This document shows positions 40,183 to 42,197 of a stretch of 43,715 bases of DNA, in pieces. The DNA lies in NCBI GenBank assembly GCA_025454975.1, contig JALONK010000028.1, positions 1-43,715 on the forward strand. The letters are read 5' to 3'. Under the pieces are notes generated by a model that did not search any database, was not told the origin of the DNA, and saw nothing but the letters and a program-made list of their open reading frames with translations. Position 1 is the first letter of the stretch, and every line of letters begins with the position of its first letter. This DNA is from Bacteroidia bacterium. GTDB lineage: Bacteria > Bacteroidota > Bacteroidia > UKL13-3. A program made the position numbers and the translations under genes.

Positions 40183-40317
40183 TTATCAAAAAAAAGACCT
40201 GTGAGCTGATCTTACGGGAAGCAACACAGGTACGGTTAGGTCAAAGGTAATATGATTTTAAGGACTTGTACAAGTGATCAACCTAATTTATAGAAAATTA
40301 AGTGTTTTACATGATTA
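40183..40317 (-). ncRNA. Small structured RNA gene, copy 1 (downstream of the Abi gene)
   Basis: Read on the minus strand this is a complete small transcription unit: TTG (40273-40271), 21-nt spacer, TACCTTTG (40249-40242), then an RNA of about 50 nt ending in a hairpin and eight T (40195-40188). The hairpin is ACCTGTG (40231-40225), a 21-nt loop and CACAGGT (40203-40197). The loop can form a small inner stem (GCT/AGC or CTT/AAG). The 82 bp 40183-40264 are identical to copy 2; the remaining 53 bp are about 81% identical. Structured RNAs have been described next to abiF-type genes (abiF motif); I could not test membership. No open frame lies inside. Confidence 0.72.
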
Positions 40318-40407: not shown

Positions 40408-41301
40408 TTAGCGCCAAATTGGTTCGTTTCGCCAATTTGATGGAAAGCCCATTTTACTCAGTTTAATATTAGGAAACTGGTCGAATAAAGTAAAAATTTC
40501 ATCTTTAATATGGTGCCCGTAGCTTATTTCATTGTTTAAATAAATCATTGCTGATAGGATTGGAAAAATCTTTCTTCTTTGATAATTATTGGGTATGTAT
40601 GATAAAATTGGTCGAGGAGTTGCAGGCGGCCAATCATATTTATTGATAATAATACGATTCCAAATTCTGCTGTGATGTGCAATGATGTTTCTGATTACAG
40701 TTATGGTTAATAACCAACTCACCAGGTATTTTTGATTATTAAGTCCAAACTCATTTGCAATCCTGTTCTTTTCCGGTAATTGATGTTTTAGGTTGCTATA
40801 AAGTTTTGATAGTGTACCTAGTGTTAATACTTCAAGTGATTTCCAACTTTCAGGCATTTCATTGGGATGATTTTCAAAATGTTTTACGATAAACTCTTCA
40901 CTGCTTTTGCTCATATCTATGGAAATCTTTCCGCAGAAGGAAACATATCGTTTCGGATCTTGAAATATTGCCGGCAATAAATACCAATGTGGTCCGTAAG
41001 TTTGTGATAAGGTATAAATAAGTTTTGTTCGTAAGGCTATTTCAATACGTTCAATAGCATTGAAAATGATTAATCGAAAATGCCTGTCAAAATTGTATAG
41101 GTCTACTACGTCTTCAAAAAATGTATTGGGAGCAAAATGATGATTAACTGTGTTGTCTTGCATTTCCCACCAATAACCTTTTAAACGATAATAACTGATA
41201 TTATTTAAAAAATAAGCAGCATCTCTAATATTTTTAAATTGCATATCCCTGCTCTGCAACAGGGCTATTTGCTCGTGGATAGTTTTAGATGGTTTAGACA
41301 T
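40408..41301 (-). CDS. Abi_2 family (AbiD/AbiF-like) abortive-infection protein, HEPN RNase type
   Basis: Predicted phage-defence or toxin protein of 297 residues. The N-terminal motif SYYRLKGYWW (36-45), the segment YNFDRHFRLIIFNAIERIEIALRTKL (69-94, quoted in part as FDRHFRLIIFNAIERIE) and IRNIIAHHSRIWNR (203-216) are those of Abi_2 proteins. The last contains the HEPN catalytic pattern R-X4-H (Arg204, His209), so RNA cleavage is likely. It is flanked by two copies of a small-RNA gene in the same orientation; copy 2 ends about 70 bp before its ATG. No good TAnnTTTG box precedes it. It is the only defence-type gene in the window. Confidence 0.88.
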   Translation of the reverse strand: MSKPSKTIHEQIALLQSRDMQFKNIRDAAYFLNNISYYRLKGYWWEMQDNTVNHHFAPNTFFEDVVDLYNFDRHFRLIIFNAIERIEIALRTKLIYTLSQTYGPHWYLLPAIFQDPKRYVSFCGKISIDMSKSSEEFIVKHFENHPNEMPESWKSLEVLTLGTLSKLYSNLKHQLPEKNRIANEFGLNNQKYLVSWLLTITVIRNIIAHHSRIWNRIIINKYDWPPATPRPILSYIPNNYQRRKIFPILSAMIYLNNEISYGHHIKDEIFTLFDQFPNIKLSKMGFPSNWRNEPIWR

Positions 41302-41372
41302 AAAAATTATTTAAAACCAATAAATCTTACTAGTGGCGATAAGTTTCAATCGGTTGGTTATACGTAATACAA

Positions 41373-41507
41373 TTATCAAAAAAAAGACCTGTGAGCTGAT
41401 CTTACGGGAAGCAACACAGGTACGGTTAGGTCAAAGGTAATATGATTTTAAGGAATTGTACAAATGCATAACCTTATTTAAAGAAACATAAGTGTATTAC
41501 ATGATTA
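41373..41507 (-). ncRNA. Small structured RNA gene, copy 2 (upstream of the Abi gene)
   Basis: Same unit as copy 1, on the minus strand: TTTG (41464-41461), 21-nt spacer, TACCTTTG (41439-41432), RNA of about 50 nt, hairpin (41421-41415 with 41393-41387) and eight T (41385-41378). It ends about 70 bp before the Abi ATG in the same orientation, so readthrough of its terminator would transcribe the Abi gene. This is the order of RNA antitoxin, terminator and toxin in type III systems, but with a single RNA unit instead of tandem repeats. Confidence 0.74.
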
Positions 41508-41729: not shown

Positions 41730-42134
41730 TCAAAGCTTTGTATCATTCGGACTAAGAAACCAAATGATTTGAAATAGTATTGCGCCAATAAAGGTCCATA
41801 TAATGTCGTGCCAATCAAAATACCCTTTTGAGCTGAATTGTTGAAGATACTCCCAAACAACTAATCCTGAAACCGAAACTAAGTTTGCAGTGAAGTGCCG
41901 CTTGTTTGTCATCCATTTGCGAGTAGAACCTAATAAAGGAAACAATAGAATAAATAAACAGGGAATACCAATAGCCGGAAAAAAATTTGGAGCCACACCT
42001 AAAAGATACTCAACAGTTGTACTCATGTATGAATACTTAGGACGAATGTACACTTGTACCAATTCATAGGTAACAAAATTAATTGCGAATAAAACAAACC
42101 AATACCATGAATGTATAAATGTATTTTTAGTCAT
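41730..42134 (-). CDS. VanZ-like small membrane protein
   Basis: About 134 residues with four hydrophobic helices. The segment WEYLQQFSSKGYFDWHDIIW followed by a glycine-containing helix resembles the E-x2-Q ... D-x2-D motif of VanZ-like proteins. ATG at 42134 is preferred to an upstream GTG. The function is unknown; VanZ relatives are sometimes linked to glycopeptide tolerance, but nothing here supports that. It stands alone between the small-RNA/Abi module and a broken gene. Confidence 0.65.
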   Translation of the reverse strand: MTKNTFIHSWYWFVLFAINFVTYELVQVYIRPKYSYMSTTVEYLLGVAPNFFPAIGIPCLFILLFPLLGSTRKWMTNKRHFTANLVSVSGLVVWEYLQQFSSKGYFDWHDIIWTFIGAILFQIIWFLSPNDTKL

Positions 42135-42197
42135 TTGATGTGTTAACACCGGCTTAATTTATACTAAACTATTGAACCTATGTTTTAAATTTATAAG

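Follow-up and report, generated by a model that had tools for sequence, protein, structure and literature searches.

The window analysed here, a 43,715-nucleotide stretch of DNA that makes up one whole contig (C73) of the 83-contig, 3.44-Mb genome of a Bacteroidia bacterium, very probably (about 0.85) carries an AbiF-type toxin-antitoxin pair in which one promoter would serve both partners, a single hairpin would be at once the RNA antitoxin and the terminator, and readthrough of that terminator would yield the toxin mRNA. The pairing of gene and RNA, the promoter, the hairpin, the terminator, the promoter-free gap and their conservation are shown at the level of sequence and comparison; readthrough in this organism, toxicity, neutralization and the trigger would follow what is described for relatives. 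By these sequence features the locus is a new member of the already known AbiF/RNA-antitoxin kind. Particular to it are a hairpin that itself appears to be the terminator, the subtype of the RNA, and, downstream of the toxin gene, a second copy whose promoter-RNA core is identical.

Organization of the locus

The features of the locus are collected in Table 1. Each of two direct repeats reads, on the minus strand, as an AT-rich region, a −33 box (TTTG in copy 2, CTTG in copy 1), 21 nt, the −7 box TACCTTTG, a stem-loop of the form GACCTAACCGTACCTGTG-loop-CACAGGTC and a run of eight T. Bacteroidota promoters span about 40 bp, and the spacing of the two boxes in copy 2 agrees with this. Folding a 60-nt RNA from this region on its own gives the hairpin as expected (−12.3 kcal/mol, z −2.1).

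Table 1. Predicted features of the RNA-abiF locus (window coordinates)
Feature	Position	Strand	Basis and remarks
Abi_2 / AbiD-AbiF HEPN RNase toxin gene	40408..41301	−	297 aa, RNIIAH motif (R204...H209); ATG at 41301
U-tract-to-ATG gap, 76 nt	41302..41377	−	Without promoter-like site by scans
Copy-2 terminator U-tract, 8 T	41378..41385	−	Direct reading
Copy-2 hairpin	41387..41421	−	Antitoxin-like fold, also the putative terminator stem-loop; fold prediction and covariation in 24 sequences
Predicted gene for a small RNA of about 53 nt, copy 2 (ends inferred)	41378..41430	−	Model R1 match 75.3 bits; −7 box register in homologues
Copy-2 −7 box TACCTTTG	41432..41439	−	TAnnTTTG, same register in 21/23 homologues
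Copy-2 −33 box TTTG	41461..41464	−	Direct reading and promoter score
135-bp direct repeat, copy 2	41373..41507	−	Repeat comparison within window and genome
135-bp direct repeat, copy 1, downstream of toxin	40183..40317	−	Repeat comparison within window and genome
Predicted small RNA gene, copy 1	40188..40240	−	RNA identical to copy 2; model R1 match 75.3 bits; no Abi gene behind

Upstream of copy 2 lies a small gene for a VanZ-like membrane protein (41730-42149; PF04892 below cut-off), which is present in one other genome of the genus only, at 54% identity. The contig end (42560-43715) has a G+C content of 0.39-0.44 compared with about 0.30, holds a 47-nt imperfect repeat with a spacing of 151 nt and no long open reading frame with a family match, and has no second occurrence in the genome; a YCF48/BNR-like gene is truncated by it at about 42560. 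This stretch is possibly foreign or chimeric.

The gene encodes an Abi_2 HEPN protein

The Abi_2 domain of Pfam (PF07751) covers residues 31-215 of the product with an E-value of 4.5e-54, PADLOC calls the gene AbiD, and the protein matches the solved structure 8vz6 ('Abi family protein') over its full length (residues 3-297, E 8e-46). Sequence matches in Pfam and the PDB were to Abi_2/AbiF only. The HEPN RxxxxH motif is kept, its arginine and histidine are invariant in 23 aligned homologues, and they align with the catalytic R210 and H215 of PbAbiF. As summarized in PMC12373285, PbAbiF is an AbiF homodimer bound to its own ncRNA, and R210 and H215 are required for its activity; a review (PMC12737573) gives its structure entry as 8VZ6. 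Compared with the nearest homologue (L024), the window gene has a pN of 0.105 and a pS of 0.80, with synonymous sites saturated. Strong purifying selection acts on the abi gene. A whole-genome search found this one Abi_2 gene in the genome.

The RNA is conserved together with the toxin gene

Searching genome contigs with the protein recovered 23 homologues, almost all of them from Bacteroidota. A protein query does not select for the RNA; the RNA was nevertheless found directly upstream of the toxin gene in all 23, and in 21 of them TAnnTTTG lies exactly 12 nt before a conserved AAY. The first-pass annotation had remarked that the RNA promoter is aimed at the toxin gene, and this order of promoter, RNA, terminator and toxin is present on the minus strand of the window and conserved in every homologue examined. 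The stem is kept as well: across 24 sequences 95.8% of its cells are paired (shuffles 82%, slid controls 26-42%), and five of its ten pairs have changed on both sides. The loop, GCTTCCCrTnAGAnCAGC, is nearly invariant across the homologues, as is a 5′ stretch AAYnGTAC. RNA distance rises with protein distance (Mantel r 0.74), as expected if the two have been inherited jointly as a unit.

In the converse search, a covariance model built only on the RNA, blind to the protein, was run against 394 Bacteroidota genomes. It returned 26 matches outside the window. Directly behind 16 of these lies an Abi_2 gene, in some cases cut by the contig end, and four more (L060, L069, L074, L076) are followed by a remnant of Abi_2 or a partial match to it. 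One match lies at a contig end (L067), and one (L083) is an additional RNA that precedes an RNA-Abi pair by 570 bp. The remaining four (L070, L075, L081, L085) have another gene behind them: hsdR in L070, a PLD/SNF2 helicase-like gene in L075, and small toxin-antitoxin-like genes in L081 and L085. The two RNA copies of L083 (1501-1562 and 2071-2132) are near-identical and in tandem, the second directly before the Abi_2 gene, and are a further case of RNA duplication.

In at least seven homologues (L024, L027, L028, L030, L031, L034, L036) the RNA-abiF unit is hosted by a type I restriction-modification operon, where hsdS, confirmed by Pfam, immediately precedes the RNA and/or hsdR begins 0-35 nt behind the stop codon of abiF. 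The window locus lies outside such an operon, and hsdR-like genes are found on other contigs of the genome. Abi2 proteins embedded in restriction-modification operons were described in 2013 (PMC3710099).

An RNA that sits directly upstream and has the form of a terminator could also be a leader acting only in cis, that is, an attenuator or riboswitch-like terminator for abi that does not bind the protein as an antitoxin, and cis attenuation alone would account for the conservation of the stem. However, termination does not need the loop and the 5′ AAYnGTAC stretch to be nearly invariant, and copy 1 precedes no Abi gene yet keeps an identical RNA. Furthermore, the RNAs of relatives bind their toxins directly and neutralize them in trans, and the solved structure of PbAbiF, as these sources summarize it, includes its ncRNA (PMC12373285, PMC12737573). 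We consider a leader of this kind improbable.

Predicted readthrough of the terminator

The first-pass annotation proposed that the Abi gene may depend on readthrough from the RNA gene. It counted 71 bp from the copy-2 terminator to the ATG; the same count is obtained from the end of the repeat, and the distance from the U-tract is 76 nt. It also saw no convincing TAnnTTTG with a −33 partner in the gap, and none was found: TAnnTTTG is absent from the 76 nt, a scan for sigma-70-type promoters gave zero minus-strand sites within them, and the best combined −33/−7 score, 4/6 + 3/4, is reached by 96% of first-order shuffles and lies below the shuffle mean. The copy-2 promoter, scored by the same simple consensus for the −33 and −7 boxes, is perfect at both (6/6 + 4/4), which 0.2% of shuffles reach.

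In seven of the 23 homologues (L037-L043) the ATG follows the U-tract by 5-9 nt, and in 12 of the 23 by 34 nt or less. A gap of 5-9 nt is too short for a promoter, so in these seven the toxin would be transcribed through the terminator; going by this spacing, its transcript must start at the RNA promoter or further upstream. For the window toxin gene, readthrough is likely by homology, the 76-nt gap alone being no proof of it. The proposal gains support from the conserved order, from the short gaps in seven of the 23 homologues and from a distant relative in Clostridioides difficile. In the RCd22-AbiFCd locus of the latter, no promoter was predicted between terminator and gene, and a short abundant RNA shares its start with a rare 1,086-nt readthrough transcript detected by RACE; deletion of RCd22 together with its terminator raised abiF RNA 17-fold, and RCd22 neutralizes AbiFCd both in cis and in trans (PMC12373285).

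The alternative is that the toxin has a weak or non-canonical promoter of its own within the gap, the RNA acting only in trans and readthrough being incidental. The window gap is among the longer ones, and the promoter test was a simple consensus, which leaves such a promoter some room. Neither of the two scans found a promoter-like site there, however, and in the seven homologues with 5-9 nt the RNA promoter retains its register; with readthrough shown in C. difficile (PMC12373285), a separate toxin promoter seems quite improbable.

RNA subtypes

The Rfam abiF model RF03085 did not match the window RNA, even at an E-value of 10, and an Rfam scan of the window gave nothing at the gathering cut-off and only an unrelated lncRNA family (E 5.5) at loose settings. 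RF03085 describes one hairpin type only; therefore this mismatch lowers the case for the RNA being RF03085, not that for its pairing with the toxin. Below the cut-off, the model matched a second hairpin in L024 (2930-2986), L025 and L028, located after the first RNA and before the ATG; L027, L029 and L031 have second hairpins like it. In these loci, and upstream of abi in L049, L051 and L052, the RF03085-related hairpins carry their own U-tract and lie either between the first RNA and the ATG or alone before the toxin. Within the taxonomic family of the window, L052 scored 37.4 bits (cut-off 37), L049 (34.3) and L051 (26.2) scored below it, and the window-type loop is present in L048 and L050. 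As judged by these matches, one position is served by two hairpin types, sometimes both in tandem. The 76-nt gap of the window may be a decayed second abiF hairpin.

The published abiF RNA (Weinberg et al. 2017, as cited in PMC12373285) is likewise a short hairpin beside Abi_2 genes, with an outer stem, a small GC inner helix and a conserved loop. It differs in that loop, CUCUCAACGAU rather than the TTCCCGTAAGATCA of the window RNA, and in having 6 nt rather than 1 nt on the 3′ side. In our alignments the 3′ side of the stem has 1 nt in the window subtype versus seven to eight in relatives of the first type, from many other Bacteroidota genomes. The Prevotella-group RNAs found in this analysis have a 3′ bulge and the window RNA has none; according to a review (PMC12737573), PbAbiFr inhibits via C32 and U38 in a single-stranded bulge, which may be the same one. 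The window RNA is an AbiF RNA subtype without a match to the Rfam abiF model.

The direct repeats

The toxin gene is flanked by the two 135-bp repeats, which are 93% identical, lie in the same orientation and are the only two copies in the genome. All ten differences between them fall in the first 53 of the 135 positions (P about 5e-5 if evenly spread), and the other 82, which include the −7 box and all of the RNA, do not differ. This difference-free part fits selection on the copy-1 RNA, or gene conversion. Beside copy 1 an Abi gene or remnant was sought and none was found. Searched as DNA against the taxonomic family, the repeat had two short chance matches only, one in a promoter and one in a gene; genome contigs contained no exact match to the stem-loop pattern.

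In another reading, the repeats would be sites of recombination, either like integron attC or a mobile repeat, that brought in abi as a cassette, and the hairpin would have no RNA role. One gene lying between two direct repeats in cassette-like orientation would suit this, but it is highly improbable, given that the genome has two copies only and that, across genomes, a single copy carrying a promoter and a covarying stem is kept before Abi_2. An integron attC cassette was rejected by direct reading for RYYYAAC/GTTRRRY pairs: ACCTAAC occurs at one end of 41373-41507 with no GTTRRRY partner, and the hairpin runs into T8. A mobile repeat was rejected on the two copies only, the terminator end and the lack of a partner site.

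More speculatively, within the preferred toxin-antitoxin pair, recombination between the repeats would delete the toxin and keep one working antitoxin, a harmless exit from addiction. The orphan RNAs (L070, L075, L081, L085) and the extra L083 copy would then be such losses or free-standing anti-AbiF RNAs, and an RNA of the window type would inhibit AbiF via its loop, without the 3′ bulge, and double as terminator. We regard this joint reading as tentative and rather unlikely as a whole. An empty site was sought in the genus; no relative had both neighbouring genes together.

Discussion

Type III systems (ToxIN, CptIN, TenpIN) consist of a promoter, an RNA antitoxin, a terminator and an RNase toxin, with the terminator setting the RNA-to-toxin ratio. 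The first-pass annotation likened the locus to this design. The likeness holds for the order of promoter, RNA, terminator and toxin and for the proposed mechanism. It fails for the class: the type III antitoxin RNA is a series of tandem repeats whereas the window has one hairpin between promoter and U-tract, and type III toxins have the ToxN/CptN/TenpN fold whereas the window toxin is HEPN Abi_2 by its Pfam and PDB sequence matches.

A close likeness is to AbiFCd/RCd22 of C. difficile (Saunier et al. 2025, PMC12373285), which also has an Abi_2 HEPN toxin with RxxxxH and an upstream RNA gene with its own promoter and terminator and no promoter between. Readthrough was shown there and would apply to the window by analogy. 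RCd22 differs in having two abiF motifs and a separate terminator within 132 nt, where the window RNA has one hairpin, its own putative terminator, in about 53 nt; RCd22 also matches RF03085 and the window RNA does not. The Prevotellaceae pair PbAbiF/PbAbiFr (Zilberzwige-Tal et al., Cell 2025, as summarized in PMC12373285 and PMC12737573) is alike in the full-length protein match and the aligned catalytic residues; in these summaries it binds one ncRNA per monomer. Its protein is distant from that of the window, with below 40% identity for most of the length by eye.

The proposed mechanism is as follows. One Bacteroidota promoter would drive a short RNA whose single hairpin would be both the antitoxin fold and an intrinsic terminator. 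Most transcription would end at this hairpin and the minority reading through would form the toxin mRNA, the efficiency of termination keeping RNA far in excess of toxin. Bound by this RNA, the HEPN RNase, probably a homodimer, would stay inactive. If RNA synthesis were lost, the RNA consumed or termination weakened, for example in phage infection, the toxin would be freed or overproduced and the cell would arrest. Several points count against it: the 76-nt gap could fit a promoter type outside the scans, the RNA has no RF03085 match and no 3′ bulge, and copy 1 and four orphan RNAs exist with no toxin behind them.

The finding links a locus of the Bacteroidota with the AbiF/RNA-antitoxin kind, which is thought to be ancestral to Cas13. 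It would be a very compact case, one hairpin RNA of about 53 nt being antitoxin, terminator and, in some relatives, nearly the whole leader of the toxin mRNA, and the RNA-to-toxin ratio would be testable by point mutations in one stem. In the restriction-modification operons, hsdR may need readthrough too if abiF does, and restriction would then be linked with the antitoxin terminator. The duplication of the RNA and its orphan copies, in turn, pose the testable question of whether hosts can lose the toxin safely.
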